NCBI GenBank assembly: GCA_004134995.1 | Contig: REGP01000002.1 | Coordinates: 682,001-746,000 of the forward strand | DNA length: 64,000 nucleotides | Source: Oxalobacteraceae bacterium CAVE-383 | GTDB lineage: Bacteria > Pseudomonadota > Gammaproteobacteria > Burkholderiales > Burkholderiaceae_D | Direction: 5' to 3' | Shown here: positions 10,808 through 33,214 of the stretch, in pieces | How positions within the stretch are numbered: position 1 is the first letter of the stretch | How the letters are laid out: the number at the start of each line of letters is the position of its first letter | Program-made: the position numbers and the translations under genes | The notes under the pieces: model-generated | The model's input: only the letters and a program-made list of their open reading frames with translations | What the model was told of the DNA's origin: nothing | The model's database searches: none

Positions 10808-10861
10808 GGCGATGGATATTCAAATAAATTGATGAAGGGAAGCCGGTTGCCGGCACTGAGA

Positions 10862-10986
10862 AGCCGTTGCAAAATGCGGCGAGGCCGGGTCTTGTACTGC
10901 GTTCGTGTCCTCCTGCGGCCTGCGGCCGCATTCCCCCTTTACCTCACTTCGCACAACACCCGGCCGCGCCGCATTTTGCAAGGGCT
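10862..10986. repeat. Palindromic variable-arm element, copy A
   Basis: A 125-bp element. The left arm (10862-10895) pairs with the right arm (10953-10986) at 31 of 34 positions. The core (10896-10952) contains a small GC hairpin (TGCGGCC/GGCCGCA) and shares most bases with the cores of copies B and C, including GCGTTCGTGTCC and CCTTTACCTCACTTCGC. The right end lies 2 nt after the ubiH stop, on the ubiH-to-upp transcript. The inner arm sequence is unlike that of B or C. Confidence 0.85.
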
Positions 10987-10988
10987 AC

Positions 10989-12146
10989 TCAGCGCCGGCC
11001 GAACATCATCTGTTCCGCCAGCAGCCGCTTGACCGGCGGCACGCCGTCGATCAGTCCCAAGCCTGCGCCCAGCAGCGTCTGCATCAGCGATCCGTCGGGC
11101 GCACGCGCAAATACCGTCGCCATCAGATCGGTCAGGCCGACCGTGGCGCGGCGATCGGCGCGCCGCTGCGCATCGAACTGCTGCAGGCTGACCGGACTGT
11201 TCTGCCGTGCCAGCAGACGCGCCAGGCTGGTGGCGTCGCGCAAGCCCAGGTTCAGGCCCTGGCCCGCGACCGGATGCAGGGTTTGCGCGGCGTTGCCGAT
11301 GGCGACGATGCGTGTCGACGGCGCCGGTTCCGCGTTCAGGCCGAGCGGAAAGGCATTGCGCGCGGAGACGGCGGTAAAACGTCCGACCCGGCCGCCGAAC
11401 GCATTGCCCAGACGCGCCAGGAAATCGGCATCGGACAATGCCAGCAGGCTGCGCGCGTGATCGGGCCGCACGCACCATACCAGGGCGTAGCCGTCGTTTT
11501 GCGGCAATAGCGCCAGCGGCCCTTCAGCGGTAAAACGTTCGAAGGCGCGCTGCGGCAACGGCGCGCTCGCCTGCACGTGAGCGACGATGGCGGTCTGGTC
11601 GTACTCGCGGCTGCGCGCCTTGGCCGATTGCTCTGTGTACAAACCGCCTTCGGCCTGCACCACGATGTCGGCCCGCAGTTGGCGGCCGTCTTCAAGACGC
11701 GCAATCACCGCATCCTGTTCTTCGATCAGCGCGCTGACGCGCGCCGGCCGCAAAATGACCGGCGCCCGCGCTTCGAGCGCGGCCGCCAGTCCCGCGACCA
11801 GCTTGCCGTAGCGCGCGACATAGCCCAGCGCGGGCAGGCCGTAATCGCCGCAGTCGATCAGCGTGCGGCCGAAATGTCCGCGGCGCGATACGTGAATCTG
11901 GCGGATGGCATTGCTCTCGATCGGCCACGCGCCGATCTCCTGCAAGATCTGCCGGCTGCCGTGCGACAGCGCGATCGAGCGCGGATCGGCCGCGGTTTGC
12001 GGCAGCGTCTTGGCGTCGATCAATACAATGCCGGACGGCGCCACGCCGCGCGCGATCAGCAGCGCGGCCGCGCCCAGCCCGACCGGCCCCGCGCCGCAGA
12101 TCAGGATATCGCAACGCATGTCCATGCCTGTGCCGGTATCAGCCAT
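10989..12146 (-). CDS. ubiH: Ubiquinone-biosynthesis FAD monooxygenase, UbiH family
   Basis: A 385-residue flavin hydroxylase of the UbiH/UbiF/VisC family. An N-terminal FAD fold has GAGPVGLG near residues 18-25. The second FAD motif reads GNAAQTLHPVAGQGLNLG (about 302-319). The GNAAQTLHP form is that of UbiH rather than UbiF/VisC. It probably hydroxylates the ubiquinone ring. It overlaps the end of pepP by 8 nt, the classic pepP-ubiH order. The exact ring position it modifies is inferred. The stop codon directly abuts palindromic element A. Confidence 0.85.
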   Translation of the reverse strand: MADTGTGMDMRCDILICGAGPVGLGAAALLIARGVAPSGIVLIDAKTLPQTAADPRSIALSHGSRQILQEIGAWPIESNAIRQIHVSRRGHFGRTLIDCGDYGLPALGYVARYGKLVAGLAAALEARAPVILRPARVSALIEEQDAVIARLEDGRQLRADIVVQAEGGLYTEQSAKARSREYDQTAIVAHVQASAPLPQRAFERFTAEGPLALLPQNDGYALVWCVRPDHARSLLALSDADFLARLGNAFGGRVGRFTAVSARNAFPLGLNAEPAPSTRIVAIGNAAQTLHPVAGQGLNLGLRDATSLARLLARQNSPVSLQQFDAQRRADRRATVGLTDLMATVFARAPDGSLMQTLLGAGLGLIDGVPPVKRLLAEQMMFGRR

Positions 12147-13491
12147 GCCGCATCAGCGCCTCGATATCGGCGACTTTGCTCGGCACGGCATTGCTCAGAA
12201 TCCGGCAGCCGTCGGGCGTGACCAGCGCGTCGTCTTCTATCCGTATGCCGATATTCCAGAATTGCTCCGGAACGTCGGCCGCCGGCCGCACATAGATGCC
12301 GGGCTCGACCGTCACCACCATGCCGGGCTCCAGCATGCGCCAGGCGCGCTCGCCATTCTCCTTGTCCTTGTCTTTGGCTTGAACCGCATCCCGGTAATCG
12401 CCGACGTCGTGCACGTCCATGCCCAGCCAATGGCCGGTGCGATGCATGTAAAAGCGCCGGAAGGCGCCGGCCGCAATGGCATCGTCCACATTGCCGACCT
12501 GGCCGGCGTCGAGCAGGCCGGTGTCGAGCATGCCCTGCGTGAGCACGCGCACGGCGGCGTCGTGGCCGTCCATGAAGCGCCGGCCGGGACGGGTCGCCTC
12601 TATGGCCGCGCTTTGCGCCGCCAGCACGATTTCGTAGAGGGTTTTTTGCGGACCGCTGAATTTGCCGTTGGCCGGGAAAGTGCGCGTGATGTCGGCCGCG
12701 TAACTGTCGAATTCGCAGCCGGCATCGATCAGCACCAGGTCGCCGTCGCGCAATTCGGCATCGCCGGCGCGGTAATGCAATACGCAGGCGTTGGCGCCGG
12801 CGGCGACGATCGATCCGTAGGCCGGCGCCTGCGCGCCGTTGTAACGGAACTCGTGCAGGATCTCGGCTTCCAGTTGATATTCGCGCAGGCCCGGGCGCGA
12901 TATGCGCATCGCGCGGCAGTGCGCCGCGGCGGAAATGTCGCCGGCGCGCTGCATCGCCGCGATTTCATCGCCGTCCTTGATCAGCCGCATCTGGTCCAGC
13001 AAACGCTGTACGTCATAGATGCCGGCCGGCGCTTCGACGCCGCTGCGCGATTGCATGCGAACGCCCTGCAGCCAGGTTTGCAGGCGGGCATCGTATTGTT
13101 CGCTCTGGCCGAGCGTATAGAAAATCGTGCCGGCGTCCGGCAGCAGGGCCGGCATTTCCTGGTCCAGCTGTTCCACCGGGAAGGCGGCGTCGAAACCGAA
13201 TTTCTCGGCGGCCACGGCCGGGCCGTAACGGAAGCCGTCCCAGATTTCACGTTCCAGGTTCTTGTCGCGGCAGAACAGGATAGTCTTGTTCTGCTTGCCG
13301 GCGACCAGCACCAGCACCGCTTCGGGTTCGGTGAAGCCGGTCAGATAATAGAAGTAACTGTCGTGGCGGTACGGATAGTCGGCATCGCGGTTGCGCATGA
13401 CTTCCGGCGCGGTCGGAATGATGGCGACGCCGCCGCCCTGCGCCTGCATTTGCGCCAATAGGCGGTCGCGTCGGATGGAATAGGGTTTCAT
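12139..13491 (-). CDS. pepP: Xaa-Pro aminopeptidase
   Basis: A 450-residue M24-family dimetal peptidase removing N-terminal residues before proline. The N-terminal creatinase-like domain occupies about 1-170. Metal ligands are visible in DAGCEFDSYAADITR (two Asp), HRTGHWLGMDVHD (His), VTVEPGIY (Glu) and IRIEDDALV (Glu). A TTG five codons upstream is in frame, but the ATG at 13491 (MKPYSIRRDRL) matches family starts better. It forms an operon with ubiH. Confidence 0.94.
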   Translation of the reverse strand: MKPYSIRRDRLLAQMQAQGGGVAIIPTAPEVMRNRDADYPYRHDSYFYYLTGFTEPEAVLVLVAGKQNKTILFCRDKNLEREIWDGFRYGPAVAAEKFGFDAAFPVEQLDQEMPALLPDAGTIFYTLGQSEQYDARLQTWLQGVRMQSRSGVEAPAGIYDVQRLLDQMRLIKDGDEIAAMQRAGDISAAAHCRAMRISRPGLREYQLEAEILHEFRYNGAQAPAYGSIVAAGANACVLHYRAGDAELRDGDLVLIDAGCEFDSYAADITRTFPANGKFSGPQKTLYEIVLAAQSAAIEATRPGRRFMDGHDAAVRVLTQGMLDTGLLDAGQVGNVDDAIAAGAFRRFYMHRTGHWLGMDVHDVGDYRDAVQAKDKDKENGERAWRMLEPGMVVTVEPGIYVRPAADVPEQFWNIGIRIEDDALVTPDGCRILSNAVPSKVADIEALMRHG

Positions 13492-13507
13492 GGCAATGTC
13501 CGGCAAA

Positions 13508-14236
13508 TTATATGGATTGATTGGGAGCGGGCGGCGCGTTCAGTTGCGCCAGTTGTTCGGCGGTGCCGACGTTGAACCATTGGCCGCGGTACACTTCGCC
13601 GCCGACCACACCGCGGTCGGCATATTGGCGCAGCAGCGGCCCCAGTTTGGCATGCGTGCCGGGCTCGATGCCGTCGAACAGCTGCGGGCGATATACGCCG
13701 ATATTGGCGAAGGTCCACAGCGGTCCGCCGTCGTTGCTGCGGTTGGCGATGCTGTAATTATGCAGCGCGAAGTCGCCTTGCGGGTGATAGTCCGGATTCC
13801 TGACCAGATACAGCCAGGCCATGTCGCGCTGTCCCTCGGGCCAGGGATTGCCCCACATGTCCTTGTCTTCCAGCGTATTGAGCACCTGCTCGTAATTGAA
13901 GTGAGGACAGAAAATATCGCCCGACAACACGACAAACGGCTCTTCGCCCAGCAAATGACGGGCCTGGGCGATGCCGCCCGCGGTTTCCAGCGCGCTGCTT
14001 TCCGGCGAGTAGCGGATCCGGGCGCCGTACTGCGCGCCGTCGCCCAGCGCATCTTCGATCATCTGGCCCAGATGCGCGTGATTGATCACGATGTCGGTAA
14101 TGCCGGCGCGCACCAAACTGAGAATCTGCCAGACGATCAACGGCCGGCCGCGCACTTTCAGCAGGGGTTTGGGGCAGGCATCGGTCAGCGGCCGCATGCG
14201 TTCGCCGCGGCCGGCGGCGAGGATCATCGCTTTCAT
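13508..14236 (-). CDS. murU: N-acetylmuramate-1-phosphate uridylyltransferase MurU
   Basis: A 242-residue nucleotidyltransferase. The N-terminal signature is MKAMILAAGRGERMRPLTD, then CPKPLLKV (the GxGxRxxPxTxxxPKP type), and a metal-binding SGDIF follows near residue 104. With AmgK it converts recycled MurNAc to UDP-MurNAc, bypassing de novo synthesis and so lowering sensitivity to fosfomycin in pseudomonads. It starts on the last base of the amgK stop (TAATG), so the two are coupled. The amgK-murU pair divergent from lptD matches Pseudomonas. Confidence 0.9.
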   Translation of the reverse strand: MKAMILAAGRGERMRPLTDACPKPLLKVRGRPLIVWQILSLVRAGITDIVINHAHLGQMIEDALGDGAQYGARIRYSPESSALETAGGIAQARHLLGEEPFVVLSGDIFCPHFNYEQVLNTLEDKDMWGNPWPEGQRDMAWLYLVRNPDYHPQGDFALHNYSIANRSNDGGPLWTFANIGVYRPQLFDGIEPGTHAKLGPLLRQYADRGVVGGEVYRGQWFNVGTAEQLAQLNAPPAPNQSI

Positions 14237-15264
14237 TAAAACGTATAGCCGACTTGCGGCGCATTGTCTTCCAGTTTTTCCAGCAAACGGACCAGCGGCA
14301 TCAGTTCGCGATAGCGGCGCGCCGTCTTCAGCGTGTATTCCATGACCAGCGGAATGTCGCGCAGATAGGCGTCCTTGCCGTCGCGATAGGCCAGCCGCGC
14401 GAAAATGCCGAGCACTTTCAGATGGCGCTGCAAGCCCATGAATTCAAAATCGCGATAGAACGAATCGATGTCGGGATTGACCGGCAGTCCGGCCTTTTTG
14501 GCGCGCTCCCAATACCGGATCATCCAGTCCAGCACCATCTCCTCGTCCCATTGCACATAGGCGTCGCGCAGCAGGGAGACCAGGTCATAGGTGATCGGTC
14601 CATAGACCGCATCCTGAAAATCGAGAATGCCGGGATTGCCGGCCGGCAGAACCATCAGGTTGCGCGAATGGTAGTCGCGATGTACATACACCTGCGGCTG
14701 CGCCAGGTTATTGGCAAGCAGGGTATCGAATACCTTGTCCAGCGAAGCGGCCTGCTCGCCGGTCAGCGTCACTTTCAGATGGCGGCCGATATACCAGTCG
14801 GGAAACAATTGCAGTTCGCGCTGCAGCAGCGCCCGATCGTAAGGCGGCAGCGCTTCCGGCTTGCTCTGGGTTTGCAACAGGACCAGGGCATCGATCGCAT
14901 CCATATACAGCTTGTGCGCGGTATCGGTATTGAGCTGATGCAGATAAGTGGTGGCGCCCAGGTCGGACAGCAGCAGGAAGCCCTGCGCCACATCCTGCGC
15001 CAGGATGCGCGGCACCGATACGCCGGTGGCGGCGAACAGATCGGCCACGTGGATGAATGGCTTGACGTCTTCCTGCGGCGGCGGGGCGTCCATGACGATG
15101 AGGCTGCCGTCCTGCTCTGTATCCACGCGGAAATAACGGCGGAAGCTCGCATCGGCCGAGGCCGGGCGCAAGGAAGCGATCGCCAGCCGCGGCGCGGCGA
15201 TGGTTTCCAGCCATTTTCGCAGCTGGGTCAATCGGAGATCGCTTGAATCGGTATTTAAAGACAT
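14236..15264 (-). CDS. amgK: N-acetylmuramate/N-acetylglucosamine anomeric kinase AmgK
   Basis: A 342-residue aminoglycoside-phosphotransferase-fold kinase. The catalytic loop reads VHRDYHSRNLMV and the metal site is LDFQDAVYGP. It phosphorylates the anomeric hydroxyl of MurNAc in peptidoglycan recycling; its product feeds MurU, encoded immediately downstream with a one-base overlap. The AmgK assignment rests on the fold plus the murU partner and the lptD neighbour. Confidence 0.9.
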   Translation of the reverse strand: MSLNTDSSDLRLTQLRKWLETIAAPRLAIASLRPASADASFRRYFRVDTEQDGSLIVMDAPPPQEDVKPFIHVADLFAATGVSVPRILAQDVAQGFLLLSDLGATTYLHQLNTDTAHKLYMDAIDALVLLQTQSKPEALPPYDRALLQRELQLFPDWYIGRHLKVTLTGEQAASLDKVFDTLLANNLAQPQVYVHRDYHSRNLMVLPAGNPGILDFQDAVYGPITYDLVSLLRDAYVQWDEEMVLDWMIRYWERAKKAGLPVNPDIDSFYRDFEFMGLQRHLKVLGIFARLAYRDGKDAYLRDIPLVMEYTLKTARRYRELMPLVRLLEKLEDNAPQVGYTF

Positions 15265-15287
15265 GAATGGCCTGCTGTTAAGGTGAT

Positions 15288-15311
15288 CTTGAAGTAATTC
15301 TTGAAGTAATT
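15288..15311. repeat. Perfect 12-bp tandem repeat in the amgK-lptD gap
   Basis: CTTGAAGTAATT occurs twice head to tail (15288-15299 and 15300-15311), between the divergent amgK and lptD starts. It could be a protein-binding site or a chance slippage product. Confidence 0.6.
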
Positions 15312-15365
15312 CGGGGTATTCGGTCCTGAGGACGGCGGAAAACGGTTAAAGGCATTGAGTTCCCA

Positions 15366-15371
15366 TATAAT
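15366..15371 (+). promoter_or_regulatory. Possible -10 box of the lptD operon
   Basis: A perfect TATAAT lies 33 nt before the GTG start of lptD. No good -35 is found at proper spacing, and none of the usual sigma-E promoter elements is clear. Confidence 0.35.
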
Positions 15372-15404
15372 AAGGGATTAACTATTTCCATGGTGTAGCG
15401 TCCA

Positions 15405-17693
15405 GTGTCATTTTCATCCCGGCGATTGTTTCGTATTTTCACCTCGTTTGTCGTGGCCACCTCGGCCTCGGCGACATTGCCGACGACCGTTTTCGCGCAA
15501 TCGATGGGCGGCGAAGGGAAATTCCGCAATGGCGCGGCCCGGGTTCCGGCCTCACCTTCGGCTTCGGCTCCCGCGCCGGCCGCGAATGAAGAAGCCACGA
15601 CCGTCAGTTCGGAGCAGATGACCGGCCGCCCGGATCGGGAAGTCGATCTCGACCGCGACGTCGAACTGGTGCGCGGCACCACCACGGTCAAGGCCGACAA
15701 GGCAATCTACCGGATCATCAAGGATGAGGTCGACGCCACCGGCAACGTCTGGATGAAGCGCCTGACCTCGCGCTATACCGGCGACCACGCCGTGCTCAAT
15801 ATCGATTCCGGCGAAGGCTACGCCACCAACCCGACGTACATCCTGGAGCCGAACGGCGGCCGCGGCAAGGCCCAGCGCGCCGATTTCCTGTCCAACGAAC
15901 GCGCCGTGCTGACGCAAAGCACCTACAGCACCTGCGAGGCGCTCGATCCGGACTGGTATATTCAATCCAGGACCCTGGACCTGGACCAGGGCCGCGATGT
16001 CGGCACCATGACCAACGGCATCGTATATTTCAAGGGCATGCCGATCTTCGGTTCGCCCTGGCTCGATTTTCCCTTGTCGGATGCGCGCAAATCCGGCGTG
16101 CTGGCGCCCACGCTCGGCGCAACCAGTACCGGCGGCATGGAGCTGGCGGTGCCGTATTATTTCAATATCGCGCCGAACCGGGATCTGACGATCACGCCGA
16201 AATACATCGCCCGGCGCGGGCTGCAGATGGGCGGCGTCGCGCGCTATATGGGCGAGGGCTATACCGGCGTTACCTCCGGCGAGCGCATCGACGACAAGCT
16301 GACCAATACCACGCGCTATACCTTCAGCACCGTGCATACCCAGCAGTTTTCCAACGGCGTCGGCTTTGGCTGGAACGTGAGCAAGGCGTCCGACAATAAT
16401 TATCCGACCGATTTTTCGAATACCCTGACCGGCGTTTCCCAGCGCCTGCTGCTGCGCAATGTATACGCTTCCTACGCCGCCACATACTGGAGCGTCACCG
16501 CGAACGTGGCGAAATACCAGGTGCTGCAGGATCCGCTATTGCCGATTACCCAGCCTTACGATCGTGTGCCGCAAGTGCTGTTCAATGCCTCGCGCCCCGA
16601 TGTCGGCGGCTTCGACCTGAGCGCGACGGGCGAATTCACGCGCTTCTCCAGTCCGAATCTGGTAGGCGGCGACCGCTCTTCGATCACGCCGAAAATTTCC
16701 TATCCTATTCTGGGCACCAGCTACTACATCACGCCCACCGTTTCGGTGGACGCAACCAACTATCGCCTGAACAACCAGGCCATCGGCCTGCCGGTCAGCC
16801 TGAACCGCGTGACGCCGACGTTTTCGGTGGACAGCGGACTGACCTTTGAGCGCGACACCACTTTCTTCGGCCGCGAGATGTCGCAGACTTTCGAGCCGCG
16901 CCTGTATTATCTGCGCACGCCATATCGCGATCAGAACCAATTCCCGGTCTTCGATACCGCCCTGGCCGATTTCAATTTCTCGCAAATCTTCAGCGACAAC
17001 CGTTTCGTCGGCCGCGACCGCATCAGCGACGCCAACCAGATCACTTTCGGCGCGACCTCTCGCTTCATCGAAAGCAACGGCGTCGAGCGCATGCGCGTAG
17101 CCGCGGCGCAGCGTTATTACTTCGCGCAGCCGCGTGTCGCGCTGCCCGATGCCGTCACCAATCTCGGCAGCAAATCCGACTTGCTGGCGGCATTGAGCGG
17201 CCAGATTACCAATGAAGTCGGGATCGATACTGCGGTGCAGTACAGCCAGTCCAATTCCCAATTCCAGCAGGCCAACTACGGCGTGCGCTGGCAGCCGGCG
17301 CCGAAGAAAGTGCTGAATCTGTCGTATCGGCTGGACCGCACCAATCCCATCATCGGCAGCAACGGCACGCTGGAGAATCTGAAGCAATACGATCTGTCCG
17401 GGCAATGGCCGCTCTCCGCGCGCTGGTACGGCGTTGGACGGATCAATTATTCGATTCCCGACAAGACCGTCACCGAAGGCCTGGCGGGACTGGAATACCG
17501 CGCCGATTGCTGGGTGTTCCGCATGGTCGCGCAACGCTTGCCGACTTCCAGCGCGCAAGCCACGACCTCTTTCTTCATTCAACTGGAGCTTAACGGCTTT
17601 GCCAAGATCGGCTCCAACCCGATGGATGCACTGACCAGCAGCATCCCAGGCTATCAGATAGTCAACAAACCTGATTCGCTTTCCCGTAACTGA
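15405..17693 (+). CDS. lptD: LPS-assembly outer-membrane protein LptD
   Basis: A 762-residue outer-membrane barrel that inserts lipopolysaccharide into the outer leaflet. A signal peptide (about 1-31, ending VFAQ) is followed by the periplasmic OstA/LptA-like domain (about 75-200) and a C-terminal barrel. I see only two cysteines in the mature protein, in STCEALDPDW (about 174) and YRADCWVF (near 690). These fit a single N-to-C disulfide instead of the four-cysteine E. coli arrangement. The start is GTG. It heads lptD-surA-pdxA-rsmA. Confidence 0.94.
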   Translation: MSFSSRRLFRIFTSFVVATSASATLPTTVFAQSMGGEGKFRNGAARVPASPSASAPAPAANEEATTVSSEQMTGRPDREVDLDRDVELVRGTTTVKADKAIYRIIKDEVDATGNVWMKRLTSRYTGDHAVLNIDSGEGYATNPTYILEPNGGRGKAQRADFLSNERAVLTQSTYSTCEALDPDWYIQSRTLDLDQGRDVGTMTNGIVYFKGMPIFGSPWLDFPLSDARKSGVLAPTLGATSTGGMELAVPYYFNIAPNRDLTITPKYIARRGLQMGGVARYMGEGYTGVTSGERIDDKLTNTTRYTFSTVHTQQFSNGVGFGWNVSKASDNNYPTDFSNTLTGVSQRLLLRNVYASYAATYWSVTANVAKYQVLQDPLLPITQPYDRVPQVLFNASRPDVGGFDLSATGEFTRFSSPNLVGGDRSSITPKISYPILGTSYYITPTVSVDATNYRLNNQAIGLPVSLNRVTPTFSVDSGLTFERDTTFFGREMSQTFEPRLYYLRTPYRDQNQFPVFDTALADFNFSQIFSDNRFVGRDRISDANQITFGATSRFIESNGVERMRVAAAQRYYFAQPRVALPDAVTNLGSKSDLLAALSGQITNEVGIDTAVQYSQSNSQFQQANYGVRWQPAPKKVLNLSYRLDRTNPIIGSNGTLENLKQYDLSGQWPLSARWYGVGRINYSIPDKTVTEGLAGLEYRADCWVFRMVAQRLPTSSAQATTSFFIQLELNGFAKIGSNPMDALTSSIPGYQIVNKPDSLSRN

Positions 17694-17709
17694 TCGGAAA
17701 TACTCACTC

Positions 17710-19155
17710 ATGAACGCTTCTTTCCCACTGCGTAACGTTGCTTCCACATTGTCCAGATTCGGCTGTTCCGCCGCACTGCTGTGCGCCGGCGTTCTGTTTG
17801 CTTCCTCCAGCCATGCGCAATACGCGACGCCGCCGGCGATGGCCAAGCCTGCCGGCCCGGTTGCCGCGCCCGTGCCTTCGCCTGCATCCGCGTCCGCGCA
17901 ATCGCGCGAACCGCAACTGGTCGATGCGATCCTGGTGGTCGTCAACGATGAAGTCATTACGCGCAAGGACCTGATCGATCGCATCATGACGGTCGAAAGC
18001 CGCATGACGGCGCAAGGCCTGCAACTGCCGCCGCGCAATCAGATGCAGGCGCAAGTGCTGGAACGGATGATCGTCGAGCGCGCCCAGGTGCAGCAGGCCA
18101 AGGAAGACGGCATCAAGGTCGACGACGCGTTGCTGGACAAGGCGATGGAATCGGTCGCCGCGCAGAACAAATTGAGCCTGGCCGAATTCCGCGCCCAGCT
18201 GGAACGCCAGGGCATGAAATTCCAGGCCTTCCGCGAACAGATCCGCAACGAAATCATGATGCAGCGCGTGCGCGAACGCGAAGTCGACAGCAAGGTCCAG
18301 GTGTCCGATTCCGAAATCGATAATTACCTGGCCGCCGAAGCCGCTGCCGGCCCTCAGGCGCAGGAAGTGGACGTCGCGCAAATCCTGATCCGCGTGCCGG
18401 ACAACCCATCGCCGGAAGTGCTGGCGCAGCGCCGCAAACGCGCCGAAGAGGTGTATCAGCAAGTGCGCACCGGCGGCGATTTCGCCAAGATCGCCGCTGC
18501 CTATTCCGACTCTTCGGATGCGACCACCGGCGGCGACCTGGGCTGGCGCACGCTGGACCGTCTGCCGCAACTGTTTGCCGATGCGGTGGTCAATCTGAAG
18601 CCGGGCGAACTGGCGCCGATCATGCGTAGCGGCAACGGCTTCCACGTGCTGCGCCTGGTGGACCGCCGCGCGGTGGCCGGCGCCAGCGCCAGTGCGCCGG
18701 CGGTTGCGCCCATCGTGCAGACGCATGCGCGCCATATCCTGATCAAGGTGACGCAAGTCGTCACGGCAACCGAAGCGCGCCGCAAGCTGGTTGAACTGAA
18801 ACAGCGCCTGGACAACCATGCCGCTACTTTCGAAGAGTTGGCCAAGTCGTTCTCGAACGACGGATCGGCATCCAAGGGCGGCGATCTCGGCTGGATCTAT
18901 CCGGGCGACACCGTGCCGGAATTCGAGCGCGCGATGAACGACCTGAAAGTGGGCGAGGTCAGCGATCCGGTTGAATCGCCTTTCGGCTTCCATCTGATCC
19001 AGGTGCTGGAACGCAAGACCGACGACATGTCGCAAGAACGTTTGCGCACCGCGGCGCGCAACGCGATCCGCGAGCGCAAGACCGAAGAAGCAACCGACGA
19101 GTGGATGCGCCAGCTGCGCGATCGCGCCTACGTCGAATACCGGCTCGACCAGTGA
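17710..19155 (+). CDS. surA: Periplasmic chaperone and peptidyl-prolyl isomerase SurA
   Basis: A 481-residue periplasmic chaperone for outer-membrane proteins, including LptD. The signal peptide ends near residue 36 (SHAQ). The N-terminal chaperone domain (about 65-195) starts [18 protein letters not shown]. Two parvulin domains follow: about 215-315 with TGGDLGWR, and about 340-440 with [12 protein letters not shown]. An Ala/Pro/Ser-rich linker after the signal peptide is longer than in E. coli SurA. It is 16 nt after lptD and overlaps pdxA by 4 nt. Confidence 0.95.
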
Positions 19156-20243
19156 TCGCACCCGGAATTTCACCTGGACCAAGGCCGGTGCTGGCCGTCA
19201 CCTGCGGCGAACCGGCCGGCATCGGCCCGGAAATCGCGCTCAGGGCGGCTTGGGACATGCGGGACAAGGCTGACTGCGTACTGATCGGCGACGCCGCCTT
19301 GCTGCGGCAGACGGCTGCGGCCTTGAATGCGGCCTTTGGCATATCGATCGAACTCGATGCGATCGCCCTGGACGCCTGGCGCCAGGACGGCGCGGCGTTG
19401 GCCACGGGAAGCGGCCATCTGACCGTTCTCGATTGCCCGCTGGCGACGCCCGCGGCGGCCGGACAATTGGATGCGCGCAACGGCATGGCGGTGCTGCAGA
19501 CGCTGGACATTGCCATCCAGGGCACGCTGGCGGCATGTTTCGATGCGATCGTCACCGCGCCGCTGCAGAAAAGCACCATCAACGACGCCGGCGTCGCTTT
19601 CACCGGCCATACCGAATACCTGGCCGAACAGACCGGCACGCCGCAAGTGGTGATGATGCTGGCTGGCACGCCGCCGGCTTCGTCCGGTTCGGCGCTGCCC
19701 TATCTGCGCGTTGCGCTGGCAACCACCCATTTGCCGCTGAAGGATGTGCCGGCCGCGATTACCGAGGAAGGACTGGCGCTCACGCTGGACATCCTGCAGC
19801 ATGACCTGCAGCGCAAGTTCGGCCTGGCGCGGCCGCGCATTCTGGTTACGGGATTGAACCCGCATGCGGGCGAAAGCGGCTATCTCGGCCGCGAAGAACA
19901 GGACATCATCGAACCCGCCATCAAGGCGGCGCAGGCGCGCGGCATCGACGCGCGCGGCCCCTATCCGGCCGACACGCTGTTCCAGGACAAATACCTGCGG
20001 GACGCCGACTGCGTGCTGGCGATGTATCACGACCAGGGCCTGCCGGTACTCAAGTTCGCCACGTTCGGCAACGGCATCAATGTCACGCTGGGCCTGCCGG
20101 TCATCCGCACTTCGGTCGATCACGGCACCGCGCTCGATCTTGCCGCGGCGGGCGTCGGCCGCGCCGATCATCAGAGCATGATCGCCGCGATCGAAGCGGC
20201 CGCCGAGATGGTCGCCGCCAGCAAAAAACCAGCCTCGCAATGA
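19152..20243 (+). CDS. pdxA: 4-hydroxythreonine-4-phosphate dehydrogenase PdxA
   Basis: A 363-residue NAD-dependent enzyme of vitamin B6 synthesis. It starts with [18 protein letters not shown] at about 14-31. The three metal-binding histidines are seen in [22 protein letters not shown] and [13 protein letters not shown]. The frame is open to 19101 inside surA, but the GTG at 19152 overlapping the surA stop (GTGA) is a natural coupled start. It overlaps rsmA by 4 nt. Confidence 0.93.
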
Positions 20244-21034: not shown

Positions 21035-21052
21035 CGGAATCCCGGCCTGCTG

Positions 21053-21072
21053 CCGCAAGCCGGAACTTGCGG
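21053..21072. terminator. Short hairpin between convergent rsmA and gloA
   Basis: A 7-bp perfect stem (21053-21059 with 21066-21072, six-base loop) in the 65-bp gap between convergent genes. There is no T-run, so terminator function is uncertain. Confidence 0.35.
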
Positions 21073-21099
21073 GACACTTATCGGCTACTTGCCCGCTGC

Positions 21100-21519: not shown

Positions 21520-21579
21520 TGTTCGTTCCTTGTTGTTGGACGGGCCTTGGCGGGCCCTGAAAACGCATCGAGCGATGCG

Positions 21580-22521: not shown

Positions 22522-22524
22522 AGA

Positions 22525-23301: not shown

Positions 23302-23309
23302 AATGTCTC

Positions 23310-23888: not shown

Positions 23889-23908
23889 TTTGCGTTCCGA
23901 TTCCATGC

Positions 23909-26026: not shown

Positions 26027-26092
26027 GTTTTACTTTTGATCGTATCTGGGTACAAGCGAGTGAAGCAGAAGCGGAATGTGAAGCCGGCCCGG

Positions 26093-27028
26093 TCAGGCGG
26101 CTTCGCGCCGGTTATCTTTGCCGGCCTCCAGCATCGGAAAGCCGAGCTTCTCGCGCGACTCGAAATAAGCCTGCGCCACGGCGCGCGACAAATTGCGGAT
26201 GCGTCCCATATAGGCGGCGCGTTCGGTGACCGAAATGGCGCCGCGCGCATCCAGCAGGTTGAAGGTGTGGGCAGCCTTCAGAATCATTTCATATGCCGGC
26301 AGCGCCAGCGGGACTTCCAGCAGGCGCTTGGCTTCGGATTCGTAATTGCCGAACAGCGAAAACAGGAATTCGGTATTCGAATGCTCGAAGTTGTAGGTCG
26401 ATTGTTCGACTTCGTTCTGATGGAATACGTCGCGGTAGGTCAGGGTGCGGGTCATTGGTCCATTGATGCCGTTCTCCGTGACTTCGGTCCAGACCAGATC
26501 GTAGACGTTTTCGACGCCCTGCAGATACATCGCCAGCCGCTCGATGCCATAGGTGATTTCGCCCAGGACGGGCTTGCAGTCGAGTCCGCCGACCTGCTGG
26601 AAGTAGGTGAACTGAGTCACTTCCATGCCGTTCAGCCAGACTTCCCAGCCCAGGCCCCACGCGCCCAGGGTCGGATTTTCCCAGTCGTCCTCGACGAAGC
26701 GCACATCGTTCTGTTTCAGGTCCAGCCCCAGCGCGGCCAGGGAACCCAGATACAGGTCCAGGATGTTCTCGGGCGCCGGCTTCAATACCACCTGGTATTG
26801 GTAATAATGCTGCATGCGGTTCGGATTTTCGCCATAGCGCCCGTCTTTCGGGCGGCGCGACGGCTGCACATAGGCGGCGCGCCACGGTTCAGGCCCGATC
26901 GCGCGCAAGAAAGTGGCCGTATGGGAGGTGCCGGCGCCGACTTCCATGTCGTAGGGCTGCAATAAGGCGCAACCCTGGGCGCCCCAGTAATCTTGCAGTT
27001 TGAGGATAATCTGTTGAAATGTAAGCAT
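26093..27028 (-). CDS. glyQ: Glycine-tRNA ligase alpha subunit
   Basis: The 311-residue catalytic alpha subunit, a class II synthetase. It begins [34 protein letters not shown], shown here only as a family match in outline, and has [19 protein letters not shown] near 76-94. Upstream, between it and lnt, lies palindromic element B, so its mRNA probably carries that structure in the 5' leader if the lnt-glyQ transcript is continuous. Confidence 0.96.
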
Positions 27029-27101
27029 CGTTTTAAGATCCGGCCTGCTGATTCGCTAAAACCCTGAATTTTAGCCGCTTTTACCCCCTTCCGCCGTAAA
27101 A

Positions 27102-27247
27102 GCCGTCCGGCAAAGGCGCCCTCCGGCTGGCGTAATGGGATGTTGTACTCCGTTCGTGTCCTCCGGGGGCCTTCGGCCTCCTCCCCCTTTACCTCACTGC
27201 GCACAACATCCCATTACGCCAGCCGGAGGGCGCCTTCGCCGAACGGC
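27102..27247. repeat. Palindromic variable-arm element, copy B
   Basis: A 146-bp element. The left arm (27102-27146) pairs with the right arm (27203-27247) at 43 of 45 positions. Both mismatches become G-U pairs in the RNA read from the minus strand, the direction of lnt and glyQ. The core (27147-27202) shares TTCGTGTCC, the central GGCC hairpin and CCCTTTACCTCACT with copy A in the same orientation. The right end is 5 nt after the lnt stop. Arms are longer than in A and C, and their inner sequence is unrelated. Confidence 0.87.
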
Positions 27248-27252
27248 AAAAC

Positions 27253-28902
27253 TCATTCAAGATGCTTTGCCGGCCACCGTGCCCAGACCAGCGCCAGCAG
27301 CGCGATAGCGAGGATCAGCTTGTTGCCGGCCAGCATGTACGGCGTCCAGCCCTGGTAGCCCTGCACTTGCGTGACCAGTACGTCTGCGGTGAAGGGACGC
27401 AGTTCGGCGCCGATATGCCCTTTCGGATCGATTATGGCGGTGGCGCCGGTATTGGTGGCGCGCAGCATCGGGCGGCCGCTTTCCAAGGCGCGCATCTGCG
27501 AAATCTGCAAATGTTGCGGCAGTGCAATGGAATTGCCGAACCAGGCGATATTCGAAATATTCAGCAGAATGCTGGCCGGCGGCTTGCCGTCGAACCAGGC
27601 GCTGCCCAGTTGCGCCGCGATTTCCTCGCCGAACAGATCCTCGTAGCAGATATTCGGCATGATCCACTGATCCTTGACCGCGAACGGCTGCTGCAGCACG
27701 CCGCCGCGCGTCATGTCGCCCAGCGGGATATGCATCATGTCGACGAACCAGCGAAAACCGGGGGGAATGAATTCGCCGAACGGCACCAGATGATGCTTGT
27801 CGTAGCGGTAAGGCGCGGCCGGCACGGATACGCCGCCGGTGACGACAGGCGGCGCGAACATGATCAGGCTGTTGCTGTACGCGCCGGGCGCGTCGGACAG
27901 GGGAATGCCGAGCGCGAGATGGCTGCCGGAGGTTTCCGCGTAGCCGGCGAGGCTTTCCAGGTAATTTGCCGGCAATTGCTGCGGCAGCAGCGGAATCGCG
28001 GTCTCGGGGATGGCGATCAGGTCGGCCGGCGCGGCGCGAATGGCGGCGTCGTAGTATTCCAGGGTCGACAGCAGCGCCGATTCGGAGAATTTGGTTTCCT
28101 GCGCGATATTGCCTTGCAGCAGCCGCACGCCGATCGGCGCGCCTCGCGGCGCCGTCCAGTTGACGGCATGCAGCGCGACGCCGCCCATCAGCAGAACCAC
28201 GATGCCGGCCAATGCCCTGGCGGTGAGCGGCCGGCGGTCGGGGGCATCCGGCGCGGTCTTTTTCAGCGCGGTGGCGGCCAGCACGCAGCAGCCCGCGATC
28301 ACTGCGGCGATCCATCCCAGGCCGTAGACGCCCAGCAGCGGCGCATATCCCTTGAGCGGGCCGACGCTATGCGCATAGCCGGCGCTGAGCCACGGGAATC
28401 CGGTAAAAAGCCAGCCGCGCACCCATTCGGTCAGCGCCCACAGCGCGGGCAGCAGCAACAGCAGCATGGCGGTTTCCGGACAGCGCCAGCGCCGTTGCAA
28501 TGCGGTCGCCAGCGACAACGCGAGCGCGCTGTACAAGCCGATGAACAGCGCCAGCAGGGCCACCGCCAGCGCCGCCATCCAGCCTGCCATGCCGCCGTAG
28601 GTATGCATGCTGATGTAGAGCCAGTGCACGCCGCATGCGGTCCAGCCGAAACCGTAAATCCAGCCCAGCAGGAAATTGCGGCGGATGTCGGGCCGGCGCG
28701 CGGCTTGTCCGAACAGCCAGGCCAGGGCCAGGATTTGCAAGGGCCAGATATGGAAGGGGGCGAATGCCAGGACATTGCAGGCGCCGGCCAGCAGGGCCAG
28801 CAGCATCAGTTGCAACGGCGGCAATGAAGACAATAGCGGCAGGGACGGCAAGGGCGACGACGGGGAGGGCGGAAAGCGCTCCCCGCTTGTCGGGCGCCGC
28901 AT
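27253..28902 (-). CDS. lnt: Apolipoprotein N-acyltransferase
   Basis: A 549-residue inner-membrane enzyme that adds the third acyl chain to lipoproteins. About six to eight membrane helices (30-230) precede a periplasmic nitrilase domain (about 255-510) with the catalytic triad in IPETAIPLL (Glu), YDKHHLVPFGEF (Lys) and PNICYEDLFGE (Cys). The Ser/Pro/Leu-rich N-terminus (1-28) is unusual but plausible. It overlaps the corC stop by one base. Confidence 0.95.
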   Translation of the reverse strand: MRRPTSGERFPPSPSSPLPSLPLLSSLPPLQLMLLALLAGACNVLAFAPFHIWPLQILALAWLFGQAARRPDIRRNFLLGWIYGFGWTACGVHWLYISMHTYGGMAGWMAALAVALLALFIGLYSALALSLATALQRRWRCPETAMLLLLLPALWALTEWVRGWLFTGFPWLSAGYAHSVGPLKGYAPLLGVYGLGWIAAVIAGCCVLAATALKKTAPDAPDRRPLTARALAGIVVLLMGGVALHAVNWTAPRGAPIGVRLLQGNIAQETKFSESALLSTLEYYDAAIRAAPADLIAIPETAIPLLPQQLPANYLESLAGYAETSGSHLALGIPLSDAPGAYSNSLIMFAPPVVTGGVSVPAAPYRYDKHHLVPFGEFIPPGFRWFVDMMHIPLGDMTRGGVLQQPFAVKDQWIMPNICYEDLFGEEIAAQLGSAWFDGKPPASILLNISNIAWFGNSIALPQHLQISQMRALESGRPMLRATNTGATAIIDPKGHIGAELRPFTADVLVTQVQGYQGWTPYMLAGNKLILAIALLALVWARWPAKHLE

Positions 28903-29786
28903 CAGAACAGATCCTGGTCGGTATGCGGGCTGAAGATTCTTTCGGCCATGATCACGTGCACCTGGCGCGCATCGGCCAGCGCCACGGTGAACTGGATGCC
29001 GTCCAGTTCCAGCTGGTCGCCCTTGACCGGCACCCGGCTCAGATGATTGGCGATCAGGCCGCCGATGGTGTGGGCTTCCTCGTCGAACAGCGTGGCGCCG
29101 ATGACTTCATTGCAATGCGCGATTTCGGTCAGGCCCTTGATGCGCCAGCGCGGACCATGGGGACCGTCCTTGACCGGGACGATGTCGTCCTTGTCTTCGT
29201 CGATGTCGTATTCGTCTTCGATGTCGCCGACGATCTGCTCCAGCACGTCTTCAATCGTGATCAATCCCGCCACGCCACCGTATTCGTCGACCACGATCGC
29301 CATGTGGTTGCGGTTGGAGCGGAAATCGCGCAGCAGCACGTTGAGGCGCTTCGATTCCGGTATGAAAACCGCCGGGCGCAGGATGGCGCGCACATCGAAC
29401 GATTCGTGCGCGTAATAGCGCAGCAGGTCCTTGGCCAGCAGGATGCCGATCACATTGTCGCGCTCGTCTTCGACCGCGGGAAAGCGCGAGTGCGCGGTGC
29501 TGAGCACGCTCGGCATCCAGCTTTCGATCGGTTCGTTGATATTGATGACATCCATCTGCGAGCGCGGCACCATGATGTCGCGCACCGACAGATCGGATAC
29601 CTGGAACACGCCTTCGATCATCGACAGCGCGTCGGCGTCGATCAGGTTGCGGGCATGCGCATCCTGCAAGACGTCGAGCAGTTCGGCGCGGTTTTCCGGT
29701 TCGGGAGATATGAGGGCGGTCAGGCGTTCAAATAATGAACGATGCGGTTTTGCGTCGGATTTGATACTACTGGGAAGTTCTTGCAT
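28902..29786 (-). CDS. corC: CorC/HlyC-family CBS-domain protein
   Basis: A 294-residue cytosolic protein with two CBS domains (about 65-190, starting VRDIMVPRSQM) and a C-terminal CorC/HlyC domain (about 205-285). An acidic stretch DIEDEYDIDEDKDD lies between them. CorC is linked to magnesium and cobalt efflux in enterics, while the same protein beside lnt and ybeY is often called YbeX, with ribosome and heat-related phenotypes. Context favours YbeX. It overlaps lnt by one base. Confidence 0.88.
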   Translation of the reverse strand: MQELPSSIKSDAKPHRSLFERLTALISPEPENRAELLDVLQDAHARNLIDADALSMIEGVFQVSDLSVRDIMVPRSQMDVININEPIESWMPSVLSTAHSRFPAVEDERDNVIGILLAKDLLRYYAHESFDVRAILRPAVFIPESKRLNVLLRDFRSNRNHMAIVVDEYGGVAGLITIEDVLEQIVGDIEDEYDIDEDKDDIVPVKDGPHGPRWRIKGLTEIAHCNEVIGATLFDEEAHTIGGLIANHLSRVPVKGDQLELDGIQFTVALADARQVHVIMAERIFSPHTDQDLF

Positions 29787-29895
29787 ATGGCGCGAGCCGA
29801 TGGGACATGGTTTCGATTCGTCATAGCATACAACAAATATGTGACAAGTCTATATCCCGGGGGCCCAAGCGGCGCAGTGTTGTGAAATCGCGAAG

Positions 29896-29913
29896 CGGCC
29901 CGGATCCGGGCCG
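29896..29913. other. 18-bp perfect palindrome in the ybeY-corC gap
   Basis: A GC-rich perfect palindrome centred on GGATCC within the 200-bp gap between ybeY and corC. It has no T-run on either strand, so it is probably not an efficient terminator. The gap shows no other gene or clear promoter. Confidence 0.4.
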
Positions 29914-29986
29914 TTCCGTTTACACCCGTTTGCGCCAAAAAATGGCGTATTTCGCCAACAAATGCACCTTTGCGGCGCCGAAAGCG

Positions 29987-30463
29987 CTAAACCGATCTTG
30001 GGCCGTTGTCTTCCGTATATGGATTCGGAATGCGCAGCGCCGCCAGCAATTCGATCTCGATCTGTTCCATTTCGGCGGCTTCTTCGTCGGATTCGTGATC
30101 GTATCCCTGCGCGTGCAGCACGCCGTGCACGATCAGATGCGCCGCGTGCTGCGCGAGCGTCTTGCCCTGTTCCTTTGCTTCGCGCTGCAGCACGTCGGTG
30201 CAGAGCACGATGTCGGCCTGGGTGATCTCGCTGTCCTGATCCTCGGTATAGGCGAAGGTCAGCACGTTGGTGGCGTAATCCTTGCCGCGGTAATCGCGGT
30301 TCAGCGCCTGGCCTTCGGCGGCGTCGACGAAGCGGATCGTCAGCTCGGCCGGCGCGAACAGGGCGCTTTGCACCCAGCGCCGCACGGTGGCGCGCGGCAG
30401 CATGGCCTGCAGGCGCGGGTCGGGATATTGCACCGACAGCGAGAGCTTATTTTTTGGCGGCAT
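29987..30463 (-). CDS. ybeY: Endoribonuclease YbeY
   Basis: A 158-residue zinc endoribonuclease for 16S rRNA 3'-end processing and ribosome quality control. The diagnostic metal motif [11 protein letters not shown] lies near 118-128, and [12 protein letters not shown] is conserved. Its start lies within the last codons of phoH (17-nt overlap); an ATG two codons earlier (30469) is an equal alternative. The phoH-ybeY-corC-lnt order is the usual proteobacterial arrangement. Confidence 0.93.
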
Positions 30464-31574
30464 TGGCATTGCGCGGACGGGCCGATTTGGTGACGCCGCC
30501 GCCGGCATTGGCCGCATTGCGCGATTTCGCGCCGCCGAAATCGGCCGCGATGGCCTGCGCGCCGGCCTTGTGCGCGGACGCCGCTTCATAGGCGTCGACA
30601 ATGCGTCCCACCAGCGGATGGCGCACCACATCCTTGCTGCTGAAGTGCGAAAAGGCGATCCCGCGCACATTCTGCAATATCTGGCCGGCCTCGATCAGCC
30701 CGCTGCGCTGGCCGGAATGCAGGTCGATCTGCGTGATGTCGCCGGTAACCACGGCCTTGCTGCCGAAGCCGATGCGGGTCAGGAACATTTTCATCTGCTC
30801 GCTGGTGGTGTTCTGCGCTTCATCCAGGATGATGAATGCGTGATTGAGCGTACGGCCGCGCATATACGCCAGCGGCGCGATTTCGATGGCCTGCTTTTCG
30901 AACATTTTCTGGGTGCGGTCGAAGCCCAGCAGATCGTAGAGGGCATCGTACAGCGGGCGCAGATACGGATCGATTTTCTGCGCCAGGTCGCCGGGCAGGA
31001 AGCCGAGCCGTTCTCCGGCTTCGACCGCCGGCCGGGTCAGCACGATTTTCTTGACCGCGTCGCGTTCCAGCGCATCCACCGCGCAAGCCACCGCAAGATA
31101 GGTCTTGCCGGTGCCGGCCGGGCCGATGCCGAAGGTGATGTCGTGTTCCAGGATGGACCGGATGTACTGGCTTTGATGCGGCGTGCGGCCGCGCAGATCG
31201 TGGCGCCGGGTTTTCAGCACCGGGAATTCGATCGACGTCATTTCGACATCGTCGGCCGCATTCTCGGCTGCGGCAGCACTGCCCGGGGACAATTCATCCG
31301 GCTCGGCGCCGGCGCGCTGTTCCACCAGCGCCAGCTGGATTTCCTCGACCGAAACCGGCTTGTCGGCCAGGGCGTAGAAATGTTCCAGGATTTCGGTGGC
31401 GCGGGCGGCATTGCCGCCGCTGGCGATGAATTTTTCGCCGCGCCGGAATATGGTGACGTCCAGCGCAGCCGAAATCTGGCGCAGGTTCTCATCGAGCGGA
31501 CCGCACAAATGCGCCAGGCGCTTATTGTCGAGCGGATCCGGAATGAAGAATTGCGGGGCAGTCGATGTTTTCAA
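30447..31574 (-). CDS. phoH: PhoH-like ATPase
   Basis: A 375-residue cytosolic ATPase (PhoH/YbeZ). Walker A GPAGTGKT at 151-158 and Walker B IILDEAQN at 248-255 are intact. An N-terminal KH-like region (about 25-95) and a basic Ala/Asn-rich tail flank the core. It is thought to act with YbeY on RNA. No in-frame ATG precedes the conserved N-terminus; a TTG at 31574 is the likely start, with only a weak ribosome site. Confidence 0.92.
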
Positions 31575-31639
31575 TATGGATGCCTGAGGGGGTGCCGGTT
31601 ATCTGATGATCGAAGTATTGAAAGCAATAGATTAGCAGG

Positions 31640-32992
31640 TTATTGCCGCACGACGAGTTCGCCGCGCAGGGAATACGAATACGTCTGCAGGATATTGACG
31701 TCGAGCAGTTGGCCGACCAGGCGCCGGCCGTTCGGGCCGCCGTCGAAATTGACGACGCGGTTGTTTTCGGTGCGGCCCTGCATTTCGCCGGGATCCTTCT
31801 TCGAAGGGCCTTCGACCAGAATGCGCTGCACGCCGCCGACCATTTGTTGGCTGATGCGGTCGGCGCTTTCCTGCACCACCGCCTGCAAATGCTGCAGGCG
31901 TTTGAGCTTGACGTCGTACGGCGTATCGTCCGTCAGATTGGCCGCCGGCGTGCCGGGGCGCGGACTGAAAATGAAACTGAAGCTGCTGTCGTAGCCGATG
32001 TCGGTGATCAGCTTCATCAGCGCGGCGAAATCCGCATCGGTTTCGCCGGGGAAGCCGACGATGAAATCGCTGGAAATGGCGATATTGGGGCGTACTTCGC
32101 GCAGCCTGCGCAATACCGATTTGTATTCGAGCGAGGTATAGCCGCGCTTCATCGCCGCCAGGATGCGGTCGGATCCGTGTTGCGCCGGCAGGTACAGATG
32201 ATCGACCAGCTTCGGCACCTTGGCGTAGGTATCGATCAGGCGCTGCGTGAATTCCTTGGGATGGCTGGTCACGAAGCGGATGCGTTCGATGCCCGGGATC
32301 TCGGCGATGTATTCGATCAGCAGCGCGAAATCGGCGGTCTCGCTCAAGCCCCGGCTGTCGACCATCATGCCGCGATAGGCGTTCACGTTTTGCCCGAGCA
32401 GCGTGATTTCCTTGACGCCCTGTGCGGCCAGCCCGGCCACTTCCGTCAATACGTCGTCGAAGCGGCGCGACACTTCCTCGCCGCGCGTATACGGCACCAC
32501 GCAGTAGCTGCAATATTTGCTGCAGCCTTCCATGATCGAAACATACGCCGTGGCGCCGTCGACCTTGGCCGGCGGCATATGGTCGAATTTTTCGATTTCG
32601 GGAAAACTGATGTCGACCTGCGCCCGGCCGCTGCTGCGGCGTTCATCGATCATCTGCGGCAGGCGATGCAGGGTTTGCGGGCCGAACACCATATCGACAT
32701 ACGGCGCGCGCTTGACGATCGCATCGCCTTCCTGCGACGCCACGCAGCCGCCGACGCCGATCAGCAGATTCGGGTTCTTCAGCTTGAGTTCGCGCAGGCG
32801 GCCCAGGTCGGAAAACACTTTTTCCTGCGCCTTTTCGCGCACGGAACAGGTATTGAGCAAAATGATGTCGGCATCTTCCGGGCGGTCGGTCTTGACCACG
32901 CCATCGGACAGATTGAGCACGTCGGCCATCTTGTCCGAGTCGTACTCGTTCATTTGGCAGCCGAAGGTTTTGATGAATAACTTTTTTTGCAT
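31640..32992 (-). CDS. miaB: tRNA-2-methylthio-N6-dimethylallyladenosine synthase MiaB
   Basis: A 450-residue radical-SAM methylthiotransferase acting on i6A37 of tRNAs. The N-terminal UPF0004 domain has cluster cysteines C12, C49 and C83. The radical-SAM motif CxxxCxxC is C157, C161 and C164. A C-terminal TRAM domain ends the protein. It is the first gene of the miaB-phoH-ybeY series and is preceded by palindromic element C, which separates it from ggt. Confidence 0.95.
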
Positions 32993-33076
32993 GATAGGAG
33001 AGGGGCAGCGGGGAACGGCGGCGGCGCTCGGCCGGGCAAGCCGTTAATGCGCGATTATAGCATCGCGCCCCTATGA

Positions 33077-33200
33077 GGCCGTTGCAAAAACAGGGGCGGC
33101 GGGGTGTTGTGCGAAGTGAGGTAAAGGAGGAGACGGCCGCAGGCCGGCGGGGGACACGAACGCAGTACAACGCCCCGCCGCCCCTGTTTTTGCAATCGCC
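33077..33200. repeat. Palindromic variable-arm element, copy C (inverted core)
   Basis: A 124-bp element. The left arm (33077-33110) pairs with the right arm (33167-33200) at 31 of 34 positions, including 23 consecutive perfect pairs. The core (33111-33166) is the reverse complement of the cores of A and B, yet the left outer end GCCGTTGCAAAA is the same as in A. So core and ends are in opposite relative orientation here. The right end is 14 nt after the ggt stop. Confidence 0.85.
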
Positions 33201-33214
33201 TCCGTTTCAGGCGC

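Follow-up and report, generated by a model that had tools for sequence, protein, structure and literature searches.

A dispersed palindromic element of Burkholderiales with matched, copy-specific arms around a conserved core

Introduction

ERIC and NEMIS/Correia are short intergenic palindromic repeats of bacterial genomes with mobile-element traits. REP sequences (repetitive extragenic palindromes), as an excerpt of PMC3733652 describes them, are palindromes of 20–40 bp that carry a tetranucleotide tag, GTAG or CGTC, at one of their ends. BRE (Hot et al. 2011) has full-length copies of 75–91 bp, some in tandem arrays, with 4 counted in Rhodoferax ferrireducens and 29 in Polaromonas sp. JS666, and one copy lies within an RNA seen on Northern blots; the same partial text (PMC3110155) names ERIC and NEMIS/Correia among palindromic repeats resembling miniature inverted-repeat transposable elements (MITEs). 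Template switching has been put forward as a one-step maker of matched stems (PMC8794818, in excerpt), and it is an open question whether stems stay paired by stepwise compensation or by such switching. Here we address this question with three long palindromic elements in a 64,000-nucleotide (nt) stretch of Oxalobacteraceae bacterium CAVE-383 (contig REGP01000002.1, positions 682,001 to 746,000), hereafter the window. We lean towards reading them as copies of a structured nucleic-acid element dispersed in genomes of Burkholderiales, shaped by a selected fold together with arm-to-arm template copying.

Results

The three elements lie exactly where a preliminary description, made from the window's letters, had placed them (Table 1). 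Of 15 inverted repeats listed in the window they are the longest three, with arms as delimited by an inverted-repeat search, and they fold with z-scores of -7.8 to -14.5. A covariance model of 124 positions, R1, was built from 73 sequences of many genera, in which 22 of 25 pairs have compensatory changes. Run on the window with filters off, R1 gives the elements 99–120 bits on one strand and 22–29 bits on the opposite strand, and its highest score elsewhere in the window is 23.7 bits.

A genome-wide search with core and covariance model, as the preliminary description had advised, enlarges the family from 3 copies to 82 exact cores and 90 strong R1 matches. The core pattern CGTTCGTGTCC-N-CTTTACCTCACT is matched exactly 82 times in the 4.12 Mb genome, against none for the reversed control. 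R1, with 150 of 1,041 first-look candidates scored, finds 91 matches, 90 of them strong (81–123 bits) and one a 24-bit fragment; 89 of the 91 are matched end to end, and no decayed copy between 81 and 24 bits is found among the candidates scored. In 864 kb sampled (the window and 40 further stretches), 21 of 29 long palindromes carry the exact core block; of the other eight, sorted by judgement, three belong to the same family with an altered core, four to a second family and one to neither. The common core that had been claimed for the three elements holds for its blocks, which are exact in 82 copies, but not for the whole, which occurs as 33 distinct strings in 81 copies, the apical hairpin being the variable part. 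A partial copy (G000:C3:447230-447283, 24.4 bits) directly adjoins the full copy L011, to the left of its core.

The arms of one copy were said to match each other while differing between copies, and this is what the family shows. At pair positions k = 6–26, Watson–Crick pairing is 0.85–0.99 within copies versus 0.27–0.75 between copies of one subfamily; from about k = 38 outward, within-copy and between-copy pairing are alike. Among 81 copies (L074, which runs into a contig end, was set aside) we found neither unpaired arms nor one common arm sequence, the two outcomes named beforehand as telling against the claim, and no two copies have identical arms. The further claim that inner arms are unrelated between copies stands in part: departures from consensus are copy-specific, but the arms form two types, of 47 and 34 copies when the 81 are divided by the base adjoining the core, and each type has a loose consensus. 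Five copies placed in type B by that base have type-A-like arms. Departures from the type consensus occur on both arm sides at once: 540 departing cells are two-sided and Watson–Crick paired, compared with 63 one-sided and unpaired, 19 two-sided and unpaired, and 14 one-sided and paired. Within a type, nearest neighbours are separated by differences at 1–12 of 26 positions in the inner left arm, which makes a few copies close relatives. In an alignment of 79 of the 90 copies, fitted to R1 and made without L036, L046, L074 and eight copies with altered cores (alignment A4), pairs form in 99.4% of the modelled cells and covariation scores 0.470, compared with a mean of 0.115 after shuffling and at most 0.088 for slid partners; none of 500 shuffles reaches the observed value of any of five measures.

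The core is not palindromic, so the copies can be oriented. On the strand that carries the core pattern, mismatches in 2,025 pairs comprise 40 A-C, 4 G-T and 35 others (p = 1.7e-8; k = 2, at which most copies share one fixed mismatch, is left out of this count), and the same mismatches read on the opposite, folding strand are 40 G-U and 4 A-C. The excess is 7:0 where tandem flanking genes run along the pattern strand and 11:0 where they run against it; because it stays on the same strand in both gene orientations, the folding strand is fixed by the element. Covariation with G-U intermediates on one strand, a criterion for structured RNA, is thereby seen here from sequence alone. The predicted folding strand is 5'-AGTGAGGTAAAGGRGGAG...hairpin...GGRGGACACGAACG-3', and its folded parts would be a long stem made by the arms (P1, of 22 to about 50 bp), a small inner helix, a purine-rich loop GGRGG...GGRGG and the apical hairpin. 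Orientation is also biased with respect to replication: 58 of 90 copies have their pattern strand on the G-rich replication strand (p = 0.008), and a nearest-stretch rule gives 56 of 84 (p = 0.003).

Several features of the core were compared by eye. The inner helix would consist of tandem G-A pairs in most copies and of Watson–Crick pairs in divergent ones: in the divergent cores found with R1 it changes in pairs, from U-A to C-G and from tandem G-A to G-C and A-U. The two single-base linkers of GGRGG...GGRGG swap, usually one being A and the other G, in both arm types; copy L020 has A in both. A two-tier G-quadruplex made of the four GG tracts was considered, and two elements of locus L234, in which G51 has become A and G76 has become T together, speak instead for a purine–purine helix.

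Matched arms in the window's genome bear marks suggestive of one-step change. Gapless compensated changes in the two arm types number 96 and 122 transitions, 92 and 86 swaps, and 79 and 67 other transversions. Over the 19 pairs of the model alignments that can be compared with a second series (below), there are 262 compensated cells (118 transition, 75 swap, 69 other) versus 16 G-U, 2 A-C and 7 other mismatched cells. At k = 6 all four kinds of Watson–Crick pair occur, with 46 of 47 type-A copies paired and one mismatch; on rough home-made trees, the state there is common to nearest relatives at a rate of 0.27, versus 0.27 with shuffled labels, and requires 22 changes, against a shuffled mean of 24.4. 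In L058, L063 and L069 both arms contain insertions of several bases; by eye, on the arms of 19 selected copies, these were not seen in other copies. The arms of L053 and L080 contain, again by eye, an inverted copy of the adjoining gene's 3' coding end. Sorting of insertions and deletions against the family consensus is noisy, most of all for type B.

Beyond this genome the element is patchy. The exact core occurs in 2 of 34 genomes of the same GTDB genus, and of 200 genomes sampled from the order 7 have R1 matches, with at most 17 scored per genome (the genome of the window is included in both counts). A scan of named genomes, whose 80 listed stretches make the genera a sample, includes records of Rhodoferax, Hydrogenophaga, Variovorax, Paucibacter, Comamonas, Limnohabitans, Ramlibacter, Curvibacter and Herbaspirillum, among others. 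The arms in other genera differ yet are mostly self-complementary: 1,197 of 1,520 ungapped pairs are Watson–Crick in 76 copies among the matches listed, with pattern-strand mismatches of 151 A-C versus 31 G-T. In several of the genomes found with R1 the elements form inverted pairs, whose folding strands diverge in 14 of 14 cases.

Comparison of the flanks of all loci reveals orthologous series, and the translated neighbours of 25 loci were inspected. An element with its folding strand in the sense direction lies between boxB and boxA, both above their NCBIfam cut-offs. Sense copies also occur between two genes that we take to be pccB and pccA, encoding a carboxyltransferase and a biotin-carboxylase subunit (their best NCBIfam matches stay below cut-off, and the second protein is incomplete); in a rubisco cluster whose large-subunit gene was matched and whose other neighbours are presumably cbbS and cbbQ, the latter with a weak GvpN match only; between genes for a sugar-binding protein and a permease (matches below cut-off); and beside a NarK-family transporter gene (match below cut-off), across from which lies what we take to be narG. 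Other inspected copies lie between convergent genes, and the right-hand gene points away in 5 of the 24 loci that have one.

For the boxB-boxA site, the search covered 67 genomes from the genus to which a Hydrogenophaga aromaticivorans record belongs, and 30 loci were fetched, one per genome; 26 hold a full R1 match, one a truncated match and three none. Over 21 pairs in the 26 sequences, the sense strand has 69 G-U, 9 A-C and 8 other mismatches, and the compensated changes comprise 64 of transition type, 14 swaps and 1 other; none of 500 shuffles reaches the observed covariation. Restricted to the 19 pairs used above, the series has 71 compensated cells (56 transition, 14 swap, 1 other) versus 44 G-U, 9 A-C and 8 others. 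Although these loci were found through their flanks, the core is nearly, if not wholly, constant. Locus L110 carries an element with wholly different arms at the same site. A dispersed repeat with a C6...G6 hairpin, recurring in many genomes at about 83–93% identity, adjoins the element at one boxB-boxA site (L153 1880-2006).

The copies sit close to the ends of genes. With genes called on both sides by a home-made caller, which underlies all gene positions and orientation counts in the window's genome, 79 of 82 copies lie between convergent (39), tandem (30) or divergent (10) genes; at L066 the caller placed an open reading frame across the element. The distance from outer arm end to stop codon has a median of 11.5 nt and is at most 10 nt at 48 of 108 ends, and 8 of 108 ends overlap a called gene by at least 6 nt. 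The 106 neighbouring proteins contain 163 Pfam families, of which the 25 commonest are of ordinary kinds (metabolism, transport and regulation), with no transposase among them.

Empty sites at orthologous loci, which the preliminary description had proposed to look for, exist: all six sites matching the three window loci in relatives G029 and G030, with the same flanking genes at 76–88% identity, are without the element. G029 has at least 40 core matches elsewhere and G030 none, and the differences at the window loci are most simply gains in the window's genome. Three of the empty sites are diverged to a degree that would blur any target duplication. Several G029 contigs start or end at an element (for example C38, C142, C172 and C100), so copy number there may be underestimated. 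At the G030 site matching element 1 (L283 2726-2921) stands a long palindrome of unrelated sequence, GGGCTTCGCCCT..., as though the 3' ends of genes drew palindromes of different kinds.

In the window, the folding strand of element 1 is sense between the FAD-binding protein gene and upp, that of element 2 is sense between lnt and glyQ, and that of element 3 is antisense to both ggt and the radical-SAM/TRAM gene.

Table 1. Positions of the three elements and their adjoining genes in the window
Feature	Positions	Strand	Basis
Element 1, whole folded unit	10862..10986	- (G-rich folding strand)	R1 99.4 bits on -, 21.7 on +; member of 82-copy family
Element 1 arms	left 10849..10895, right 10953..10999		inverted repeat I2, 47 nt, 89% complementary
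Element 1 conserved core	10900..10948	+ (pattern strand)	exact core-pattern match, G000:C4:692900-692948
Element 2, whole folded unit	27102..27247	- (folding strand)	R1 109.1 bits on -, 27114-27236
Element 2 arms	27102-27153 / 27196-27247		52 nt, 90% complementary
Element 2 conserved core	27151..27198	+ (pattern strand)	exact core-pattern match, G000:C4:709151-709198
Element 3, whole folded unit	33077..33200	+ (folding strand)	R1 120.1 bits on +
Element 3 arms	33075-33110 / 33167-33202		36 nt, 92% complementary
Element 3 conserved core	33115..33162	- (pattern strand)	exact core-pattern match, G000:C4:715115-715162
upp-like uracil phosphoribosyltransferase gene, adjoins element 1	10163..10807	-	Pfam UPRTase 2.9e-75
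FAD-binding protein gene, 3' end against element 1	10992..12146	-	Pfam FAD_binding_3 9.9e-18
glyQ-like glycyl-tRNA synthetase alpha gene, adjoins element 2	26096..27028	-	Pfam tRNA-synt_2e 8.3e-147
lnt-like apolipoprotein N-acyltransferase gene (5' part cut by locus end), 3' end against element 2	27256..28698	-	Pfam LNT_N, CN_hydrolase
UPF0004/Radical_SAM/TRAM gene (miaB-like), adjoins element 3	31643..32992	-	Pfam domains
ggt-like gamma-glutamyltranspeptidase gene (5' part cut by locus end), 3' end against element 3	33218..34660	-	Pfam G_glu_transpept 1.1e-115

Searches of collections placed the element in no named family. Rfam gives no match at gathering score in the window. On seven loci at E ≤ 5 it gives three matches, of which only a chrB-b RNA, located away from the element (L118 1194-1250, 44.5 bits), exceeds its gathering score; its six matches at L153 are all below threshold. 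No tRNA is found in the seven loci, no element match in a phage collection and no exact match in IMG/VR, and a plasmid set yields two weak Variovorax matches. In the literature, the letters of the core turn up only in papers titled on other subjects, and BRE is the sole lead among the matches listed; intrastrand-triplex repeats (PMC4666352, in excerpt) and spaced motifs (PMC5217627, in excerpt) were considered as leads by description, not letter by letter.

A second palindrome family in the window's genome, with core CTCTCGGCTTCAAACGTTCGTCG, occurs at 15 places with at most three mismatches (L319-L333; for example C3:597145-597167 and C4:290662-290684). Its arms are matched within copies too, and its pattern-strand mismatches are 26 A-C versus 3 G-T. 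By eye, its outer arm ends are like those of both arm types described above, which gives arms and cores a modular look. Elsewhere in the window, a perfect 20-bp inverted repeat with a 4-nt loop (1498-1541) is perhaps a terminator.

Discussion

The family has matched copy-specific arms, a G-U-tolerant strand, conserved core blocks, proximity to stop codons, presence/absence differences between relatives and retention at one operon site in many genomes. Two of the causes that the preliminary description had offered for matched arms find support: selection on the hairpin, from the strand-fixed G-U excess and the retention at an orthologous locus with G-U-mediated compensation, and arm-to-arm copying in the window's genome, from the many transversion-type double changes, the few intermediates and the two-arm insertions. 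On the reading we prefer, template switching at replication (quasipalindrome correction) would copy one arm onto the other in the window's genome, and a change would show in both arms because one is recopied from the other. The folded strand probably works as RNA in 3' regions; it may act in 3'-untranslated or intercistronic regions as an end barrier, a terminator or a protein-binding hairpin, by analogy with the supposed roles of REP and BIME (bacterial interspersed mosaic element) hairpins, and its core may be read by a protein.

Several points weigh against this reading. The constancy of the core blocks in alignment A1 arises partly by construction, because its rows were picked by the exact core pattern. 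Shared descent, possible saturation and some register shifts weaken the argument from transitions and transversions. Asymmetric insertions and deletions occur too, and 5 of 81 copies need a gap for their arms to pair. Tandem copies in the window's genome are sense in 17 cases and antisense in 13, and element 3 is antisense, a near-equal placement that a strictly mRNA-borne function does not predict. The replication-linked orientation bias (58:32 of 90) is left unexplained by an RNA role alone, and a mutation bias on the exposed strand could likewise put G-U on one strand.

Strong selection on the fold might suffice by itself, with ordinary stepwise compensation through G-U pairs and no copying between arms. 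Precisely such a stepwise G-U pattern is seen at boxB-boxA, and a paper on REP, in the excerpt at hand (PMC2817692), also invokes selection for complementary mutations. We nevertheless regard this as unlikely for the window's genome, where 144 of the 262 compensated cells are not of transition type, G-U cells number just 16 and at least three copies carry multi-base insertions in both arms.

We likewise think it improbable that the folded strand is a DNA intermediate, with a single-strand-processing enzyme recognising the core and the strand asymmetry reflecting mobility rather than RNA. An asymmetry independent of gene orientation, an orientation bias linked to replication and inverted pairs that keep one relative order in all 14 cases would all fit. 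Against it, a Y1 (IS200/RAYT) transposase match, Y1_Tnp, is lacking in two of 13 element-bearing genomes, G204 and G219 (each with at least 17 element matches), and none of 14 Y1_Tnp loci carries the element within 1.5 kb. The folding strand, moreover, is mostly on the leading-strand template, and the strand preference of IS200/IS605 is the reverse of this bias.

A selfish palindromic mobile element without function, its arms matched purely by quasipalindrome correction, seems to us a somewhat poorer explanation again. The presence/absence differences between relatives, the patchy spread through genus and order and the 17:13 ratio in the window's genome speak for it; the full matches at 26 of 30 flank-found boxB-boxA loci with a nearly constant core, the lack, among scored candidates, of decayed copies in the gap from 81 to 24 bits and the fixing of wobble to one strand speak against it. 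Insertion that duplicates its target in inverted form, giving copy-specific arms from birth, is very improbable as the general origin, given that most copies' arms follow two consensuses and that the empty sites in relatives hold no such arms, although it may have extended a few copies, as the arms of L053 and L080 and the 8 of 108 arm ends overlapping genes suggest.

More speculatively, and with little confidence, the element could be a bacterial counterpart of short interspersed nuclear elements (SINEs): non-coding, and spreading through its own folded single strand (RNA or single-stranded DNA) by means of an enzyme that recognises the purine-rich core. Fold-back copying, during replication or whenever the element moves, would then renew the second arm on the template of the first, leaving arms ever new yet always matched, and some copies would later have been fixed as operon regulators.

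The element offers about 90 natural replicates in one genome along with orthologous series in other genera, and both signatures of compensation are visible, each in its own setting. The element has a long core that is mostly not Watson–Crick paired, is matched by no Rfam family and is kept at operon sites, among them boxB-boxA (benzoyl-CoA oxidation) and a rubisco gene cluster.

Among described systems, the closest in placement are REP/BIME and REPINs, likewise dispersed extragenic palindromes at gene 3' ends and between the genes of operons; the element's stems, too, are compensated, and it forms inverted pairs in some genomes. Unlike them, it is more than 120 nt long, with a long, conserved core that is largely not Watson–Crick paired. 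Identity with REP is ruled out by size, as the 124-position model is matched end to end in 89 of 91 cases, and by tag, neither GTAG nor CGTC standing in the invariant columns of the 73 sequences (the element's outermost ends are not sharply defined); a RAYT partner is not supported, given the Y1_Tnp loci described above and the occurrence of a Y1_Tnp match in all 34 genomes of the genus, whether or not they carry the element. ERIC and NEMIS/Correia differ from the element, whose arms vary from copy to copy while staying matched and whose core blocks are common to several genera. BRE, as far as the excerpted text goes (PMC3110155), is similarly a betaproteobacterial intergenic repeat, also found in Rhodoferax and other Comamonadaceae, with a published copy at B. 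pertussis 3605317-3605401; by description it differs in length and in its arrays, and the two may or may not be one repeat. Finally, the multi-base changes on both stem sides and the stem extension resemble those of template-switch RNA hairpins (Monttinen and Loytynoja 2022, PMC8794818, in excerpt), which were inferred from the ancestral histories of RNA genes, whereas the element presents about 90 paralogous copies in one genome.

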